Source of the DNA: a virus
Reading direction: 5' to 3' (one strand)
Length of the DNA stretch: 26,161 nucleotides
Virus record (IMG/VR): IMGVR_UViG_3300029893_000024
Location: 1 to 26,161 of that record
Shown here: positions 3,076-22,178 of the stretch, piece after piece
Layout: the number at the start of each line of letters is the position of its first letter
Numbering within the stretch: position 1 is the first letter of the stretch
Notes under the pieces: model-generated
What the model was told of the DNA's origin: nothing
Databases searched by the model: none
Seen by the model: the letters and a program-made list of their open reading frames with translations, nothing else
Translations under genes and position numbers: made by a program

Positions 3076-4734
3076 TTATTCAAAAATCTCTACCTGATCA
3101 TCAGGAGTTGATTCTTTTTTTGAAGCTTCCTTAAATGTAGTTTTCTTGTATAGACCAACAGGAAGATTAATTTCTTTTCCTTCCAATAAATCATCAACAG
3201 TTAATATCTGTATCTTATCAATTCTGTTTCCAAAATGCTTTTCATCAAAGTATCCTTGTTGTTTTGCTTCTTTAAGCATTGGTTGAGTAACCTGCTCTTT
3301 AAAACATACAAACACACCAAGATCAGATTTTCTTTTATTGACAACTTGAATAAACTCACGTACATTTTTCACATTAACGTTTCCTGATTTCACTTCAATT
3401 AGGACGATTCCTTTTTCTTTTGTATCTGGCCTATCGAATGTGATATGTCCATCCCAGCCGCCATCTGCGGTTCTTTTAGGGTTGAGTACTCCTCCAAGCA
3501 TTACTTCAACAATCCATTCCTGAAAACCGAATCGCCCATCCTTCGACAAAGCTAATTCATGAGCCGAAGCAATATCTCGGGGAAATCCAGAGATTTCAAT
3601 TTCTTCTCTAAGTTTTTTTGCACGTGCCTGCGGAGCCGATTTTGTTAAACGATCAACAATCAATTTTATTGCAAGGTGGGAAATATCAACGCCTACCCAT
3701 CCTCTATTTAATTTCTCGGCGACAGCAATCGATGTACCACAACCACAAAAGAAGTCAGCTACTAAATCCCCTTCGTTTGATGAAGCGTTTATTATTCTTT
3801 CTAACAGAGCTTCTGGTTTTTGAGTTGGGTATCCAAGTGACTCATTCCCCATAGAATTGATTAGGTCTATATCGTCCCAGAAATCTGATATAACGACACC
3901 TTTGTTCTGATCTAAATAATATTTTAACTGAGGAACCCCGTCTTTTTTCCTGGGGAAATCAACGAGACCTTTCTGAACATATAGTTCTAACTTGTCGTGT
4001 GTAGTTAACCAGTGCATCCCCTCTTTTCCTCTTGTATTTGGGTCAAATCCACGCCACGGTCGACCAGTTTCTCCTTTTGTTTTACCAGAAGCCATAAGTG
4101 GTACGAGTCTGAATTTACCTCTTTCATCAATTTGAGAGTATTTTTTTAATAATGTATGATCGTGTTTACCATACTGCAAATTAAATTTATAGCTATCACT
4201 TTTAGCATAAGCCAAGATTACATCATGCGCTTTTCTAAATATTTTTTTAATTGAAGATGTTCTACCACTACGTTTCCAGGCAATTTCGTTAATGAAAAGC
4301 TTTTCGCCAAAGATCATATCACACATTAGTTTTAAATAATGACTCATAGTTGGGTCACAGTGCAAATAAAAACTACCAGTATTCTTCAAAACTTTGTGCA
4401 TAAAAAATATTCTGATTGCCATTGTCGTGAGGTATGAAACAGCACTCTGGGAGATATTAACTTCATCTAAAGTTTTCAACAGTTTATAAAGATCAAGATC
4501 AAGATCCTTAATCTCCTCTAGTGTATCGAGGTAAGAAACATTGCTCCAGGTATCAGCAAAGGCCTCTTTCTGTGCTTTAACATCCTTAAGATCGATATCC
4601 TCGAAGAGAATATTGTAATCTCTCTTAGAATTAAAGGGGGGATCAATATAAATTAAATCAATGAATCCTTCTGGATGGGCTTTGTTTAAATCCTTTAAAA
4701 CATCTAAGCAATCACCAAAGTAAAGTTTTTTCAT
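3076..4734 (-). CDS. DNA adenine-type methyltransferase fused to an Mrr-like nuclease domain
   Basis: The first about 370 of 552 residues form a beta-class DNA methyltransferase. The catalytic D31-P-P-F34 comes first, the motif YPTQKP follows at 302-307, and the SAM-binding motif DFFCGCGTS lies at 327-335. DPPF and the motif order resemble Type III Mod-like N6-adenine enzymes. The C-terminal part has GGWDGH (D428) and LIEVKS (E447, K449), the D...ExK signature of PD-(D/E)XK/Mrr-type endonucleases. One polypeptide therefore carries both modification and a possible restriction or recognition domain. The gene follows the lipoprotein gene by 9 bases in the leftward operon, so it is probably made in the lysogen. 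It may protect phage DNA, act as a single-chain restriction-modification system, or be an orphan methyltransferase with a nuclease-derived binding domain. Confidence 0.88.
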   Translation of the reverse strand: MKKLYFGDCLDVLKDLNKAHPEGFIDLIYIDPPFNSKRDYNILFEDIDLKDVKAQKEAFADTWSNVSYLDTLEEIKDLDLDLYKLLKTLDEVNISQSAVSYLTTMAIRIFFMHKVLKNTGSFYLHCDPTMSHYLKLMCDMIFGEKLFINEIAWKRSGRTSSIKKIFRKAHDVILAYAKSDSYKFNLQYGKHDHTLLKKYSQIDERGKFRLVPLMASGKTKGETGRPWRGFDPNTRGKEGMHWLTTHDKLELYVQKGLVDFPRKKDGVPQLKYYLDQNKGVVISDFWDDIDLINSMGNESLGYPTQKPEALLERIINASSNEGDLVADFFCGCGTSIAVAEKLNRGWVGVDISHLAIKLIVDRLTKSAPQARAKKLREEIEISGFPRDIASAHELALSKDGRFGFQEWIVEVMLGGVLNPKRTADGGWDGHITFDRPDTKEKGIVLIEVKSGNVNVKNVREFIQVVNKRKSDLGVFVCFKEQVTQPMLKEAKQQGYFDEKHFGNRIDKIQILTVDDLLEGKEINLPVGLYKKTTFKEASKKESTPDDQVEIFE

Positions 4735-14720: not shown

Positions 14721-15126
14721 AGAAAAAGTCTGGTTTCATCTTCTAAACTTTAGTAAAGGGAAAGGGAAGTATCTCAATTCAGCATACTTCCAAAGAAACC
14801 TGGTGCGAGATATTGATTTGAAGTCTTCAGAAGGGAAAGAGGAACTGAAAAAAACTCAGAGAATCCTTGCTGATATTATTGAAGAACTAATAAACGACCT
14901 TAAGATATTGCAAAGTGAACACAGGATAGTAAGCTCGAATGCGGGTTACAAGATTGCTGCTGATCCCGAGGAATTGGAAGAGGGTTGGAATTACCTGTAT
15001 TCGAAAGTTGATGAAGTACTAAAAAGAATTAATTGGCTGAAAGATGGATATAAACAGATGGTCCGAAAGAACCAGAAAGCTGATAAAGTTACCGAAGATA
15101 TGTTCGCTCAAAAAATTGAGGTTTGA
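14701..15126 (+). CDS. hypothetical helical phage protein, 141 aa
   Basis: The product has an N-terminal segment resembling a winged helix (VWFHLLNFSKGKGKYLNSAY), the phrase HRIVSSNAGYKIAADPEELE near residues 74-93, and a helical C-terminus (EVLKRINWLKDGYKQM). I recall phage proteins with the same 'Gly-Tyr-Lys-Ile, then long helix' pattern near replication genes, where a DNA-binding role is assumed. It overlaps the previous gene by 20 bases and ends two bases before the nucleotidyltransferase start. Confidence 0.55.
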   Translation: MENNLNKEKVWFHLLNFSKGKGKYLNSAYFQRNLVRDIDLKSSEGKEELKKTQRILADIIEELINDLKILQSEHRIVSSNAGYKIAADPEELEEGWNYLYSKVDEVLKRINWLKDGYKQMVRKNQKADKVTEDMFAQKIEV

Positions 15127-15127
15127 T

Positions 15128-15667
15128 ATGAAACTAACAAAAGCTGAAAGGATAGCAAAGAAATATTTAGACCTACTCGCTCCATTTTGTGAGCGGATAG
15201 AGATTGCCGGAAGTGTTCGAAGGAAGAAACAGGAAGTAAAGGACATAGAAATAGTATGTATTCCCATGCAAGAGATTGTCCTTGAAAATTCTGATGATTT
15301 TTTTGATGAATCTAAACACGTTTACCAAGTTCACCATGAGTTTATAAATGAAGTTAATAAGTTAGAAAAAATAAAAGGTGAACCAACCGGGAAGTACACT
15401 CAGAGGATTTTGCCAGAAGGAATCAATCTCGATTTATTCATGGCCACAAAAGACAACTGGGGATATATCCTTGCAATCCGTATTGGTCCGGACGGTTACA
15501 GCAAATATTTAGCCGACACCTGGGTCAGGCAGGGTTACAAGGGTGTTGATGGAATGCTCACAAAGAATGGCAAACCCATTCCGGTACTTGAGGAGAAAGA
15601 TTTATTCTTCCTTCTTGGTTTGGAATACGTTGAACCTGAATTCAGAATGAACTTAAGGCAAAATTGA
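15128..15667 (+). CDS. Pol X-type nucleotidyltransferase, minimal
   Basis: From the ATG at 15128 (GAGG six bases upstream) the protein has 179 residues. It shows the nucleotidyltransferase signature AGSVRRKKQEVKDIEIV: Gly28-Ser29, then D39 and E41 as two metal ligands. The third metal ligand is D102 in INLDLFMAT. The end, EKDLFFLLGLEYVEPEFR, closely resembles the C-terminus of Pol beta-family DNA polymerases (LGL-yxxPexR). The N-terminal helix-hairpin-helix domain of full Pol X enzymes is absent, so this is a stand-alone catalytic domain. It may fill short gaps in recombination or modify nucleic-acid ends. Product and template use are unknown. Confidence 0.8.
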   Translation: MKLTKAERIAKKYLDLLAPFCERIEIAGSVRRKKQEVKDIEIVCIPMQEIVLENSDDFFDESKHVYQVHHEFINEVNKLEKIKGEPTGKYTQRILPEGINLDLFMATKDNWGYILAIRIGPDGYSKYLADTWVRQGYKGVDGMLTKNGKPIPVLEEKDLFFLLGLEYVEPEFRMNLRQN

Positions 15668-16898: not shown

Positions 16899-17111
16899 AT
16901 GGGCGAACTATTAGAAGATTTAATTGATGTGCTTATAAAGCATAAAGCCGTTGATGAAGTATCTCTTAGAAATTTCAGAGTAAGAAAACGGTACAATTAT
17001 TTAAGAGAGAAAACAGGTCTTAGCGGAAAAGAAGCAAGAAAACAAATTGCCGATGAATTTAATATGGGTGAAAAAAATGTTGAACATATTCTTTATGGGA
17101 AAAGCAAATGA
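16899..17111 (+). CDS. small helix-turn-helix protein (Mor-like), 70 aa
   Basis: I place the start at 16899; an in-frame start at 16857 would lie inside the hairpin. The 70-aa product carries RKRYNYLREKTGLSGKEARK followed by QIADEFNMGEKNVEHILYG, a helix-turn-helix with the look of Mor/C-type phage activators (Arg-x-Tyr-x-x-Leu-Arg, then Ala-x-x-Phe-x-Met-x-x-x-x-Val). A TATAAT lies 14 bases before the ATG without a good -35 box. As first gene after the hairpin and before the modification and terminase genes it may activate late transcription. This role is inferred. Confidence 0.6.
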   Translation: MGELLEDLIDVLIKHKAVDEVSLRNFRVRKRYNYLREKTGLSGKEARKQIADEFNMGEKNVEHILYGKSK

Positions 17112-17737
17112 AACTATCTGATCTTAAAGAAGCGCCTTATAATCCTCGAGATATATCAGAAGAAGCATTAAAAGGATTATCTACTTCCATAGGTGAATTC
17201 GGTGATCTTTCCGGTATAGTATTTAATAAAAGAACCGGGAATCTGGTAGCAGGTCATCAAAGAATTAAAGCATTGAAAGAGAAATATGGTGATATCGATA
17301 TTTCTTTTAGTGAAGATGGAAACGCTGCAGTTGTTACTTTGGATGGATATATTTTCCCAGTAAGGTTTGTTGACTGGTCAATCGAGAAAGAAAAGCTTGC
17401 AAATATTTCTGCAAATAATCCTAACATTCAAGGGGAATTTACCCCAGGTCTTCAATTAGTTGTTAGTGATCTAAAAATTTCTACTTCACCTGAATTACTA
17501 TCGGGATTGAACATAGATCAGCTCGAAATAAAACCACTAAACCATGAAATCAATCTCGATGTAAATAGCACTGTTGAATTACCCAAAGCCGACTTAAATT
17601 TTACATTTGGCGAATATACTTTCAAAGTTCCTCGGGAAATTTATTTGGAGTGGATTGAAAAACTAAAAATGGATGTTGGATTTTCTGATCAGGATGTTCT
17701 TAAAGAAATTCAACGGAGATTACAGCTTGAATATTGA
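17108..17737 (+). CDS. ParB-fold phage protein (ParB/Srx superfamily), 209 aa
   Basis: The N-terminus LKEAPYNPRDISEEALKGL, then GHQR at 49-52, is the ParB/sulfiredoxin fold. PVRFVDWSIEKEKLANISAN followed by NPNIQGEF, then a C-terminal FTFGEYTFKVPREIYLEWIE and LKEIQRRLQLEY, match ParB-domain proteins that in many phages stand before or are fused to a DNA methyltransferase. No methyltransferase motif occurs in this protein, but the next gene is a ParB-ParB-methyltransferase fusion. The start ATG overlaps the previous stop. It might recognise or bind the DNA to be modified or packaged, possibly using CTP like true ParB. Function not shown. Confidence 0.8.
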   Translation: MKLSDLKEAPYNPRDISEEALKGLSTSIGEFGDLSGIVFNKRTGNLVAGHQRIKALKEKYGDIDISFSEDGNAAVVTLDGYIFPVRFVDWSIEKEKLANISANNPNIQGEFTPGLQLVVSDLKISTSPELLSGLNIDQLEIKPLNHEINLDVNSTVELPKADLNFTFGEYTFKVPREIYLEWIEKLKMDVGFSDQDVLKEIQRRLQLEY

Positions 17738-19250
17738 AATCTGTGATATAAATTCGATCCGCCCGTCAACTTATAATCCAAGAGAAACAGATCCTGATAG
17801 ACTTGGACTTATTGAATTATCTCTTAGGAAATTTGGGTTCTTACTCCCTATCTACGCAGATAATAGTGGAGAAATATTAAGTGGGCACCAACGTCATTTA
17901 GTTGCACAGGCGATGGGTTCAAAAAGAGTACCGGTTGAAAGAGTCAAAGAGCTGGAATTACCAAAAAGAAAGGCAATTAATATTGTTTTTAATCGAGGGA
18001 CAAATGATTTCAGAATGGCTGATGATACAAAAAATGTTACAAGTCAACTGAACACACGATCCTTAAATGAACTATTAAAAAACATTCCCGATGTTGAAAT
18101 TGATAGTCAAGAATTCTTCCCATGCCTTAATATTAGGAAGTATGATATAAAAAAATTGTTGTATGCTAACCAGAGGAACTATAATCCTTATGCAAGGAAT
18201 ATTGCAAGAACACTTCATGCAGAGGGAATTATAATGCCAATTCTCATTAAACCTAACTTTGAGATTATAAATGGAATTGGGAGGCTGCATTTGTTAGCTG
18301 AGAAAAAATATGATTTTGTCGAATGTCTTGAGATCCCATTTGAGAAAGCAGAGGCTGCAGGTCTATTGCTCAATAAAATTACTATGGATTTTGATCTCCA
18401 CAATAAATATCAAGATGTGCTGCGATATAATTCATTCCGGAGAGCGGTTTCCAATCGTCCTGGTCTTGGAAGAGGATTTTATGTAGCTCTGTTTGGGAAT
18501 ATTCCTACTAAAGATTTTCAATTAGAAGGCAACAATCTTAAAAAGTGGAAAATGTTTTATGGTTCAAGAGTCGTTGATTTTGGAGCCGGTCACTTAACTG
18601 ATACAAGGTTACTTGAGAAAGCTGGAATTAATGTAACTCCATTTGAGCCTTACAAGATTAAATCAGGGACAAATGAAATTGATAAAGACGCAAGTAAAGA
18701 ATTAACATTAAAATTTTTAGAGAAAATTGCTCATGGATTTCAATGGGATTCAATTTTTATTTCAAGTGTTCTAAATAGTGTACCTTTCTTTGATGATCGG
18801 AAAAAGATTATTCAAATAATTGCTGCGCTTTGTAATCCATATACAATGGTTTTTGGATGGACAATGAGCAATAAAACTAAGGAATGGGAAAATCCAGAAA
18901 GAGAATATTTATCGGAGAATGCTGCCAGGTCACTAAAATTTAGACTTCATTATGAAGATGGTATTATGTTGGGTGGTTTTAACGATAAGCCAAAAGTTCA
19001 GAAGTATCATTCCGTTGATGAAGCAATTTCACTTTTCAAAATCGGGTTTAGTAATGTACTTGTAAAACATATTTCAGATTCCATATCTATAATTGCCAAA
19101 GACCCGATTATTAATCCAGTGGAATTAAAGCAAGCGATTGAGTTTGAATTTGATTTACCATATCCAGATGGATCAAGGATGAACCTGGTCAAGGAAGCCA
19201 AAGAAGCATTTGTAAAAAGACTAAACCTTCAGGAGTTGTTAGATGAGTGA
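17727..19250 (+). CDS. ParB-ParB-SAM methyltransferase fusion protein, 507 aa
   Basis: I set the start at TTG 17727 because GGAG stands nine bases before it; upstream extension would only add residues from the preceding gene's frame. Domain 1 (about 4-75) is ParB-like, with STYNPRETDPDRL and SGHQR (52-56). Domain 2 (about 136-203) repeats the layout in degraded form, with ANQRNYNPYARNI and NGIGRLHLL. Domain 3 (about 270-400) is a class I methyltransferase fold: VVDFGAGH (282-289), the acidic E307 in FEPY, and a conserved-looking LNSVPFFDDR (349-358). No DPPY or PC catalytic motif of DNA methyltransferases is present, so target and chemistry are open. It overlaps both neighbours (TTGA; ATGAGTGA at 19243). 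Confidence 0.75.
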   Translation: MNIEICDINSIRPSTYNPRETDPDRLGLIELSLRKFGFLLPIYADNSGEILSGHQRHLVAQAMGSKRVPVERVKELELPKRKAINIVFNRGTNDFRMADDTKNVTSQLNTRSLNELLKNIPDVEIDSQEFFPCLNIRKYDIKKLLYANQRNYNPYARNIARTLHAEGIIMPILIKPNFEIINGIGRLHLLAEKKYDFVECLEIPFEKAEAAGLLLNKITMDFDLHNKYQDVLRYNSFRRAVSNRPGLGRGFYVALFGNIPTKDFQLEGNNLKKWKMFYGSRVVDFGAGHLTDTRLLEKAGINVTPFEPYKIKSGTNEIDKDASKELTLKFLEKIAHGFQWDSIFISSVLNSVPFFDDRKKIIQIIAALCNPYTMVFGWTMSNKTKEWENPEREYLSENAARSLKFRLHYEDGIMLGGFNDKPKVQKYHSVDEAISLFKIGFSNVLVKHISDSISIIAKDPIINPVELKQAIEFEFDLPYPDGSRMNLVKEAKEAFVKRLNLQELLDE

Positions 19251-19446
19251 AATAATAACAATCGAAGAGCTTGAAAGTAAAGCTAAAAAAGTAATTGAAT
19301 TAAAAAAGCTGTTTGATAAAACTTTTAATGGTAACTATGATGAGCATCTTAAAGATGAACATCTTAAACTGGTCGTAATGTCTGTCGTTTTTGATGCTTA
19401 CAAAGATGGCTATAAAAAAGGATTAGAAACAGGAATCAATAAATGA
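19243..19446 (+). CDS. hypothetical protein, 67 aa
   Basis: The 67-aa acidic-basic protein (MSEIITIEELESKAKKVIEL, then DEHLKDEHLKLVVMSVVFDA) is predicted helical and has no known domain. It is coupled by overlap to the ParB-methyltransferase gene before it (eight bases) and to the CmoA-like gene after it (ATGA at 19443). It may be an accessory subunit of that pair. Confidence 0.6.
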   Translation: MSEIITIEELESKAKKVIELKKLFDKTFNGNYDEHLKDEHLKLVVMSVVFDAYKDGYKKGLETGINK

Positions 19447-20159
19447 CCCAAATAGATAATACACAACCAAAAGGGAAGTGGGAATTCAACCAGGATGTTA
19501 CAGAATGTTTTGAAGACATGCTGGAAAGGTCTATTCCGCAGTATGATGTAATGCGTGAAACAGTAACAGAACTTTCAAAACAGTTTGTTCAACATAAAAC
19601 TGATATAGTAGATCTTGGTGCATCAAAGGGTGATGCAGTTGATCCTCTAATAAAATCTTTCGGTGCATATAATCATTTTATACTTGTTGAAAAATCGGTT
19701 CCGATGTGTGAAGCGTGCCGCAAAAAGTATCAAGGTCTAATTAATGTAAATGTTCTTGAAGTAAAGAACTCAGATCTACGAAATGACTTTCCAAGATGTA
19801 AAGCTTCAGTAATATTATCAATTCTGACTCTGATGTTTATCCCGGTTAATTACCGGCAGAGGATTTTAAAACAGATCTATGATTCATTAGTACCCGGCGG
19901 TGCTTTTTTAATCGTAGAAAAGGTAATCGGAAACACTGAGCGAATTGATGAATTGATGGTCAAGAACTATCATCAAAAGAAAATTAATAACGGTTATACA
20001 AAGGATTCGGTTGAAAGGAAAGCTCTAAGTCTGGAAGGTGTTCTGGTACCTCTTACTGCAGAATTCAATGAAATACTTTTTAGAAAAGCAGGTTTCAAAT
20101 ATTATGACTGCTTTTGGAGATGGATGAATTTTGCAGGTTGGGTATTGATTAAAGATTAA
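19443..20159 (+). CDS. CmoA-like SAM-dependent enzyme (carboxy-SAM synthase homologue)
   Basis: This 238-aa protein follows E. coli CmoA over its whole length: KWEFNQDVTECFEDMLERSI at the start, IVDLGASKGD (55-64) as SAM-binding motif, and ILTLMFIPV. Then come YDSLVPGGAFLIVEK, NNGYTKDSVERKALSLEGVL (182-201) and FWRWMNFAGW near the end. CmoA converts SAM plus prephenate to carboxy-SAM for wobble-uridine modification. From my memory of the E. coli sequence, the arginine (Arg199) that grips the carboxylate is replaced here by Ala194, so the phage enzyme may be an ordinary methyltransferase or use another SAM analogue. It is coupled to the ParB-methyltransferase module and ends two bases before the terminase gene, which favours a DNA-related role. 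Confidence 0.75.
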   Translation: MTQIDNTQPKGKWEFNQDVTECFEDMLERSIPQYDVMRETVTELSKQFVQHKTDIVDLGASKGDAVDPLIKSFGAYNHFILVEKSVPMCEACRKKYQGLINVNVLEVKNSDLRNDFPRCKASVILSILTLMFIPVNYRQRILKQIYDSLVPGGAFLIVEKVIGNTERIDELMVKNYHQKKINNGYTKDSVERKALSLEGVLVPLTAEFNEILFRKAGFKYYDCFWRWMNFAGWVLIKD

Positions 20160-20161
20160 TC

Positions 20162-20653
20162 ATGGCCAAAGAGAAAAAACATACGATCAGGTTTTATCAA
20201 GCGGTCGATGCAGTAGTTTTAACTTTACTTGAGAATAGTAGATACCTCAAGAGAGAACGAAGTAAAGAATTAACCGCGATAGTAAAAGAACAACTTCAAT
20301 GCACAGCACGAACTGCACAAAGATATATTCATGAAGCTCGAAAAGAAATTAAAAAAATTGGAAGTGAAAAAAGAGAAGCAGCATTTATTAGAGAGGTCAG
20401 GGATAGAGAATACTTAATTGCGAAGACTAAATATGGAAAAGAAAAAGATTACAAACTTGCCTTAGAAATAATGAAAGACCGAGCGAAATTGTTTGGTCTA
20501 TATGTAGAGAAGGTTGAGCATTCTGGAAAGATAGCACTTGAGAGAATTGATTTTCATAAACTAAACAAAGAGCAACTTAGAAAAATTGCTCAAACAAAAA
20601 CAGAAGAAGAATTAATCACATTGCTTAATGAATTTAATATTACCACAAGTTAG
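20162..20653 (+). CDS. terS: terminase small subunit
   Basis: The 163-aa protein has an N-terminal helix-turn-helix region (about residues 30-70: RERSKELTAIVKEQLQCTAR, then TAQRYIHEARKEI). The middle segment YKLALEIMKDRAKLFGLYVE, followed by KVEHSGK, is a familiar small-terminase feature. It should bind the packaging site and deliver it to the large subunit encoded next, with which it overlaps by 26 bases. The start is two bases after the previous stop, without a strong ribosome binding site, so translation is probably coupled. Confidence 0.8.
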   Translation: MAKEKKHTIRFYQAVDAVVLTLLENSRYLKRERSKELTAIVKEQLQCTARTAQRYIHEARKEIKKIGSEKREAAFIREVRDREYLIAKTKYGKEKDYKLALEIMKDRAKLFGLYVEKVEHSGKIALERIDFHKLNKEQLRKIAQTKTEEELITLLNEFNITTS

Positions 20654-22178
20654 AGCTAAAGCGCTGCTCAAATTGTACGAGATAGAAGAAAACGAACGAT
20701 CAAATTATGATACTTTGCGAGCAGTTTATCAGAAGAATCCACTCGATTATTTTGTTGATCGTTTTGGGATTAAACGCGAATCAATTGACTGGTCGCTTCT
20801 TAATGAATATACTGATCATAAGTGGGACGGGACACCCAATCCTCTAAAAACAATTCTTGACTGTTTAGTAACTAATAATCGAATTGGAGTTGAATCTGCA
20901 ACGGGAACCGGCAAGACTTTTCTCGGTGCGCTAATTGTTTTTTGGTTTCTTGAAAATTATGAAAACTCAATTGTTGTTACAACAGCACCTAAACAAGATC
21001 AGCTGACACTGCATATATGGAAAGAAATAGGGAAGCTTTATAACAAATTCGGGAAAGGTCACTTAACAACTCTCAAGTTAAGAATGAATGAGGGACGTGA
21101 TGACTGGGTCGCTGTTGGTTTTATTGCCGGTATTAAAGCTGATGAAGAATCCTCAACAAAAGCCCAAGGTTTCCATGCTGAACACATGTTGATAATTATG
21201 GAAGAAACTCCGGGTATTCCTCAACCGATAATGACAGCTTTTCTTAACACTTGTACAGCCCCTCATAATATCATTTTGGCTTTTGGTAATCCAGATCATC
21301 AAATGGATAACCTTCATAAATTTTGTACAACTCCCGGGACAAAACATATTCGAATCTCAGCTTTTGATCATCCGAATGTTGTATTGAACAATGCGAGTTT
21401 TATCCCAGGCGCTACAAGTAGGGCCGGTTTATCAGATATGCTTAATCGATATGGTAGCTCCGAAAGCCCGTTGTATTTATCCCGTGCAAGAGGAATGTCC
21501 CCAGGTCAAAGTTCAGATAGCTTAATCCAGATGCAATGGTGTATAGATTCGCGTGATGGAGTTAAAAGAACTGAGAAAGGAATTGAGCAATTAAATCGTG
21601 AAGAATTGATGAAAGGTGAAAGAGCTTTAGGTGTAGATGTGGCTAATAGTGAAAGCGGAGATAAAGCAGCAATAGCTGAGGGTGTAGGCGCTGTTTTGAT
21701 TGACCTGAAAGATTTTCAATGTCCCGATGCAAATCAGTTAGGTAAAAGAGATATCTATTTACGAATGAAAGAGAAGAATATTAAACCAAGGATGGTTGGT
21801 GTTGACGGAATTGGTGTTGGCGCGGGGACTATAAATGCATTGAAAGAAATCGGAATAAGAGTTTCGAATATTATCAGTTCCGAAAAGCAGGTTCCTTTAA
21901 CCGGGCAAACTGAAATTTTTGATAATCTTAGATCCCAAATGTATTGGCAGTTGAGAGAAGATCTTCGTAATAGTAGAATTATCCTATGCAATGATGAGGA
22001 ATTATTCGCAGACTTAGTAACTCCCAGATGGGAAGTTCGTAACGGAAAAATCTGTGTTGAAAAAAAAGAAGAAATAAAAAAACGTCTTGGCCACTCTCCC
22101 AATAAAGGTGATGCAGTTGTGTATTGGAATTGGGTCAGGACATTAAGATTAAATACAAAATTTGAATTTGGAGGATAA
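20628..22178 (+). CDS. terL: terminase large subunit (packaging ATPase-nuclease)
   Basis: The 516-aa protein has the packaging ATPase signature: Walker A SATGTGKT (90-97) and Walker B MLIIMEET (187-194) with the catalytic glutamate. The RNase H-like nuclease has metal ligands D337 in GVDVAN, D393 in GVDGIG and D495 in KGDAVVYW. It powers DNA translocation into the prohead and cuts the genome at the end of packaging. The start overlaps the small subunit gene. Confidence 0.93.
   Translation: MNLILPQVRAKALLKLYEIEENERSNYDTLRAVYQKNPLDYFVDRFGIKRESIDWSLLNEYTDHKWDGTPNPLKTILDCLVTNNRIGVESATGTGKTFLGALIVFWFLENYENSIVVTTAPKQDQLTLHIWKEIGKLYNKFGKGHLTTLKLRMNEGRDDWVAVGFIAGIKADEESSTKAQGFHAEHMLIIMEETPGIPQPIMTAFLNTCTAPHNIILAFGNPDHQMDNLHKFCTTPGTKHIRISAFDHPNVVLNNASFIPGATSRAGLSDMLNRYGSSESPLYLSRARGMSPGQSSDSLIQMQWCIDSRDGVKRTEKGIEQLNREELMKGERALGVDVANSESGDKAAIAEGVGAVLIDLKDFQCPDANQLGKRDIYLRMKEKNIKPRMVGVDGIGVGAGTINALKEIGIRVSNIISSEKQVPLTGQTEIFDNLRSQMYWQLREDLRNSRIILCNDEELFADLVTPRWEVRNGKICVEKKEEIKKRLGHSPNKGDAVVYWNWVRTLRLNTKFEFGG

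Follow-up and report, generated by a model that had tools for sequence, protein, structure and literature searches.

The virus record IMGVR_UViG_3300029893_000024 carries, just ahead of its terminase genes, a cassette in which a homologue of CmoA accompanies a ParB-fused class I transferase and a separate ParB-fold protein. The window analysed here comprises bases 1–26161 of this 40,746-base IMG/VR record and includes the whole cassette. CmoA converts S-adenosylmethionine (SAM) and prephenate to carboxy-SAM (Cx-SAM), and the phage homologue, P0004, would carry out the same reaction. The transferase, P0002, hereafter P2, would bind phage DNA together with its ParB companion, P0001, and move the carboxymethyl group from Cx-SAM to a DNA base late in infection, before or during packaging, which may protect the DNA from restriction. 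We consider it likely that CmoA feeds Cx-SAM to P2 and that P2 carboxymethylates phage DNA at this stage, near packaging. A preliminary description of the window had supposed that a SAM analogue made by the CmoA homologue is used by the ParB-linked transferase on phage DNA; this idea is now strongly supported by comparative genomics and by a published CmoA system.

In that system, reported in December 2025, CmoA of Synechococcus phage S-B43 makes Cx-SAM, CmoX, a homologue of C5-cytosine methyltransferases (C5-MTases) with an SPPC motif and R350, produces 5-carboxymethylcytosine (5cxmC) in DNA, and CmoY amidates this base with glycine (PMC12783734). The preliminary description had spoken of a new DNA modification system; Cx-SAM-dependent modification of phage DNA is thus already on record, and what is new is the class of transferase. 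P2 would fill the place of CmoX, the C5-cytosine carboxymethyltransferase, and most likely replaces it as the Cx-SAM-using DNA transferase, because P2 is linked to CmoA, shares no locus with CmoX and has CmoA partners that interleave with those of CmoX on a tree. Our fuller proposal is that P2 may represent a second class of phage DNA carboxymethyltransferase, with an evolutionary origin independent of the first. It would be a class I enzyme of another type that uses Cx-SAM, be guided by fused and separate ParB nucleoside triphosphate (NTP) switches, modify a position other than C5 (e.g. an exocyclic or ring nitrogen) to give an undescribed base and, in most lineages, act together with a third, P2-specific HAD-like protein. 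We put this forward tentatively, as a serious possibility rather than a probability.

Linkage of P2 to CmoA

A profile built from five P2 members retrieved at least 80 loci from IMG/VR and 21 from bacterial genomes; single-protein scans of viral contigs yielded only one and four relatives. Locus counts here and below are among the matches listed, and the true number of P2 loci is larger. The loci occur in records of Alphaproteobacteria, Clostridia, Photobacterium, Victivallales and Anaerolinea, as well as in Gordonia phage Evaa, Pseudomonas Samunavirus phages (SM1) and Aeromonas phage HJ05. Co-occurrence of the genes across phages, which the preliminary description had proposed to look for, is pronounced: CmoA lies near P2 in 101 of 105 loci from the viral and bacterial collections and near CmoX in 80 of 84, as against 2 of 50 for a short P2 paralogue that served as matched control (P2 versus paralogue, Fisher p ~1e-32). 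When near-copies and loci cut off downstream were removed, CmoA accompanied P2 in 52 of 52 loci, always on the same strand, and the paralogue in 1 of 26. Only CmoX-linked CmoAs and E. coli CmoA went into the CmoA profile on which this decisive count rests. Of the four P2 loci that lack CmoA, three run into the end of their contig. All 40 sampled P2-linked CmoAs match both TIGR00740 and phrog_4752, and P2 and CmoX were found together in none of the loci scanned.

In a maximum-likelihood tree of 112 CmoA sequences, P2-linked and CmoX-linked genes interleave, with at least 25 switches of linkage, at least six of them forced by well-supported branches; this is a quick tree with many open forks, and its CmoA sets were gathered through transferase neighbours, so that CmoAs with neither neighbour are under-sampled. 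One would expect such a pattern if a common source of Cx-SAM served P2 in some phages and CmoX in others. The nearest relative of P0004, at 57%, is the CmoA of a locus (L186) that reads ParB–CmoX–CmoA, with SPPC and R350 intact. In the CmoX alignment that we collected, SPPC is present in 85 of 85 rows and R350 in 84 of 85.

The proteins of the cassette

P2 (507 amino acids; window positions 17727–19250, plus strand like all genes of the cassette, TTG start) matches phrog_5475 with 369 bits, a family without an assigned function in PHROG; in Pfam it matches ParB_N (27.4 bits) and, below the cut-off, Methyltransf_23 (22.3 bits). Its AlphaFold2 model (pLDDT 92.4, pTM 0.87) reads ParB, ParB-like and class I domain, in this order. 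The first ParB domain (residues 1–96; 17727–18014) has an intact GHQR P-motif at residues 53–56, invariant across the P2 alignment (A7). Residues 2–95 superpose on the ParB structure 7bnr (VIA-align Z 11.9, root mean square deviation (rmsd) 1.7 over 92 residues, 25% identity); the structures on which VIA-align places the ParB part are ParB–CDP/CTP structures. At the level of fold, in model and sequence, P2 thus has the ParB_N fold with a GxxR P-motif by which ParB-CTPases are recognised. The second ParB domain (residues ~131–222; 18117–18392) is degenerate, with NGIGRL in place of GHQR; the order of strands and helices in the model fits a second ParB fold, and the two halves of the ParB region align as profiles (hhalign E 2.9e-8, probability 95%).

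The class I transferase domain (residues ~228–460; 18408–19106) carries motif I DFGAG, an acidic FEP and, at the position of motif IV, the family-conserved SSVLNSVPF. In the VIA-align search METTL6 structures came first (best Z 14.4, rmsd 2.9, 188 residues; Z 13.3–14.4 and rmsd 2.9–3.3 over 181–190 residues for the top rows), with many class I enzymes 1–2 Z below. This search names a fold, not a substrate, and the absence of DNA methyltransferases from its list is not evidence. A sequence search of the PDB with P0002 gave chance matches only. Neither the (D/N/S)PP(Y/F/W) motif of amino DNA methyltransferases nor the SPPC motif of CmoX is present in P2. Profile alignment, model and motif check therefore agree with the earlier view of this gene as two ParB folds fused to a transferase fold without a standard DNA methyltransferase motif. 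Judged by its sequence, P2 is a class I transferase of another kind than CmoX, and its target atom is probably other than cytosine C5, a less likely target because the motif with the Cys nucleophile is missing.

Residues that distinguish P2 from its CmoA-free short paralogue (53 versus 27 sequences) include Lys441, replaced by Phe/Tyr, Arg376 by Glu, Pro440 by Trp and Arg257 by Gln; all four are invariant or nearly so within P2. These numbers count from ATG 17673, where the frame begins in the program-made list of open reading frames, and not from the TTG at 17727 taken here as the start. The Lys441 column holds K in 53 of 53 P2 sequences and F18, Y7, L1 and T1 in the paralogue. By analogy with R350 of CmoX, and on the basis of this conservation, we propose Lys441 (Lys423 from the TTG; codon 18993–18995) as a candidate ligand of the Cx-SAM carboxylate. 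The differences at Lys441 and Arg376 are reminiscent of the Asn-to-Arg change that marks CmoX.

P0004 (238 amino acids; 19443–20159), the predicted Cx-SAM synthase, is a full-length CmoA homologue, as had been noticed from the sequence: it matches TIGR00740 over residues 10–236 (149 bits, 1.3e-43; equivalog cut-off 193 bits), phrog_4752 (257 bits) and E. coli CmoA (4gek, E 1e-30), and its fold search is headed by 4gek, 4iwn and 1im8. Its Ala194 (codon GCT, 20022–20024) does align with Arg199 of E. coli CmoA, a residue that binds the carboxylate through a salt bridge (PMC3663124). The preliminary description had seen in this replacement the weak point of its proposal. The objection fails, because SpCmoA, a proven Cx-SAM synthase with a kcat above that of E. 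coli CmoA, has Glu at position 199. CmoX-linked phage CmoAs carry E30, R12, A2 and D1 at this position, which therefore does not define phage CmoA, and P2-linked CmoAs carry E25, R24, A7 and others. Asp62, Phe137, Lys165 and Lys198 (E. coli numbering) are kept in nearly every CmoA, P0004 included. On this alignment Ala194 neither excludes nor proves activity of P0004.

P0001 (209 amino acids; 17108–17737) belongs to the PHROG ParB families (phrog_620 ‘ParB-like’, 4e-18; in Pfam a weak ParB match of 18.3 bits against a cut-off of 26.3), which upholds its first reading as a ParB fold. Its C-terminal tail, FKVPREIYLEWIEKLKMDVGFSDQDVLKEIQRRLQL, is specific to the type of transferase next door. A profile of the P2-type tail recognises 91 of 92 P2-linked ParBs, 1 of 60 CmoX-linked and 2 of 37 linked to the short paralogue; the self-hits follow from the construction of the profile and the cross-hits carry the information. 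Among CmoX-linked ParBs the usual ending is a zinc-ribbon-like CPKCG tail, with CxxC in 57 of 60. Because the tails sort by transferase type, they suggest that the separate ParB and the adjoining transferase are physical partners. Since ATP binding has been observed for one ParB–methyltransferase fusion (PMC12704722), NTP-gated loading of ParB on DNA is plausible by analogy.

A further family, phrog_32036 (e.g. L052:4627–5037), occurs in 83 of 109 P2 loci, 0 of 84 CmoX loci and 0 of 50 paralogue loci. We read it as HAD-like from its motifs LLDLN, TARP and ESNP; two members weakly match a polynucleotide kinase family, and a sequence search of the PDB gave phrog_32036 no significant relative. 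No member was found in the record of the window (40.7 kb), in its close relative L001, in SM1 or in HJ05, and the HAD-like protein is consequently not essential to the P2–CmoA pair.

Alternative roles and neighbouring genes

Several observations weigh against DNA carboxymethylation by P2. P0004 scores under the equivalog cut-off of TIGR00740, and its Ala194 stands where its nearest relatives have Arg. The fourth P2 locus without CmoA, L057, is a real exception, since its downstream genes are present. A CmoY-type ligase was sought in P2 loci and found in none, as against 37 of 84 CmoX loci. P2 is without any recognised DNA methyltransferase motif, and its fold neighbours, METTL6 (Z 14.4) as well as glycine N-methyltransferase and other small-molecule enzymes (Z 12–13), do not point to DNA. 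Linkage by itself does not tell carboxymethyl transfer from methyl transfer. The record may moreover be a virus fragment, so that further genes may lie elsewhere.

P2 could thus be an ordinary SAM-dependent DNA methyltransferase, next to a CmoA homologue that has lost carboxylation and has some other function, such as that of a second methyltransferase. The low TIGR00740 score and Ala194 in place of Arg199 would fit, as would the short paralogue, which manages without CmoA in 48 of 50 loci. However, Glu in SpCmoA, the mixture of residues at position 199 beside CmoX, and the retention of CmoA in every non-redundant P2 locus, interleaved with CmoX-linked CmoA on the tree, make plain methylation unlikely. 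The fold of P2 and the missing motif would also suit a non-DNA target (RNA, a protein of the capsid or of packaging, the nucleotide pool), the ParB domains then being no more than NTP switches; binding of ATP, GTP or CTP and functions outside chromosome segregation are on record for ParB folds (PMC12704722). Such a target seems quite improbable, given that P2 changes places with CmoX, which acts on DNA, within one ParB–transferase–CmoA layout and that C5 DNA enzymes also have a ParB companion. We see very little chance that CmoA serves host tRNA modification (cmo5U34) in the infected cell and that its linkage to P2 is merely positional. The one cellular role characterised for CmoA concerns RNA, and phage records label it a tRNA methyltransferase, but a search of the 40.7 kb record found no CmoB (PF08003), the linkage is specific to one transferase family plus ParB, and it is proven that phage CmoA linked to CmoX supplies DNA modification (PMC12783734).

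The open reading frames of the cassette overlap in series by 11, 8 and 4 bp and end 2 bases before a putative small terminase subunit (20162–20653), so that the coordinates confirm the arrangement first described. The small terminase candidate is named from its position before the large subunit (20628–22178; phrog_2 terminase large subunit, 1.5e-24) and had no confident match in the family libraries. Between P2 and P0004 lies a small open reading frame of 67 amino acids (19243–19446), which gave no match above cut-off in the family libraries and recurs only in L001. The gene order of the cassette recurs in dozens of unrelated phages and is therefore not due to chance.

Elsewhere in the window, positions 15044–15667 match a DNA polymerase beta thumb (25.4 bits against a cut-off of 25) and may encode a nucleotidyltransferase. 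On the lysogeny side, a gene on the minus strand (3076–4734) fuses an N6/N4 DNA methylase to an Mrr-like endonuclease-fold region and adjoins an integrase-like gene (996–2381). Just past the end of the window, ambiguous bases (L012:132–419; X in the translation) likely mark a scaffold gap in the record.

Comparison with known systems

The authors of the CmoX study sought other CmoA-linked carboxymethyltransferases (adenine N6, cytosine N4) in a preliminary search and reported none (PMC12783734); our full-text literature search found no paper combining carboxymethyladenine and phage. A Staphylococcus SPbeta-like C5-MTase beside cmoA (L014:5684–6682, HhaI-like), at first counted as CmoX, was dropped because it falls outside the published signature, having neither the SPPC motif nor an equivalent of R350. 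In Erwinia jumbo phage Yoloswag (L010:6778–7653), CmoA is directly followed by a CmoY-like ligase; neither CmoX nor P2 lies within the 12.8 kb examined, and its transferase is therefore to be sought elsewhere. TIGR04096, a putative methyltransferase associated with DNA phosphorothioation, weakly matches 6 of 67 members of P2 and the short paralogue (best 1.3e-4); it does not match P2 of the window, where no dnd genes were seen.

The short paralogue resembles P2 in being a ParB-fused class I transferase with a VLNSV motif, a ParB companion and a terminase nearby. It differs in its usual lack of CmoA, in Phe/Tyr at Lys441 and mostly Glu at Arg376, and in its length of ~460 amino acids, and we predict that it is a plain methyltransferase. 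Members include URC09238 of Escherichia phage vB_EcoM-613R2, gp52 of Bacteroides phage BS-TP3, E. coli plasmid records and viral contigs (loci L019:1269–2642, L020:4263–5684 and L121–L169), with a ParB tail type of their own. The ParB–Methyltransf_23 fusions of phages (PMC12704722) share the architecture of ParB_N and Methyltransf_23 and are enriched in prophages; that survey gives the fusion without a function and does not mention CmoA in its main text, whereas a second, degenerate ParB fold and linkage to CmoA are added here.

The closest counterpart remains the CmoA–CmoX–CmoY system of S-B43, with its phage CmoA beside a nucleic-acid transferase, its frequent ParB companion and the same ParB–transferase–CmoA layout. 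P2 loci are without CmoY, the tail of the P2-linked ParB differs and has no zinc ribbon, and the writer is P2, where S-B43 has a C5-MTase homologue carrying SPPC and R350; a search of the whole 40.7 kb record found no C5-MTase (PF00145), and hence no CmoX. The P2 family, with ~100 listed phage and prophage loci (Alphaproteobacteria, Clostridia, Gammaproteobacteria and others), is as tightly linked to CmoA as CmoX is. This points to more than one origin of DNA chemistry based on carboxy-SAM and to a DNA base, as yet undescribed, that phages available in culture (Pseudomonas Samunavirus SM1, Gordonia phage Evaa, Aeromonas phage HJ05) may contain; P2 with Lys441 and an adjoining CmoA provides a sequence signature for testing this. 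Set beside CmoX, P2 suggests that phages exchange the writer and retain the source of its cofactor.

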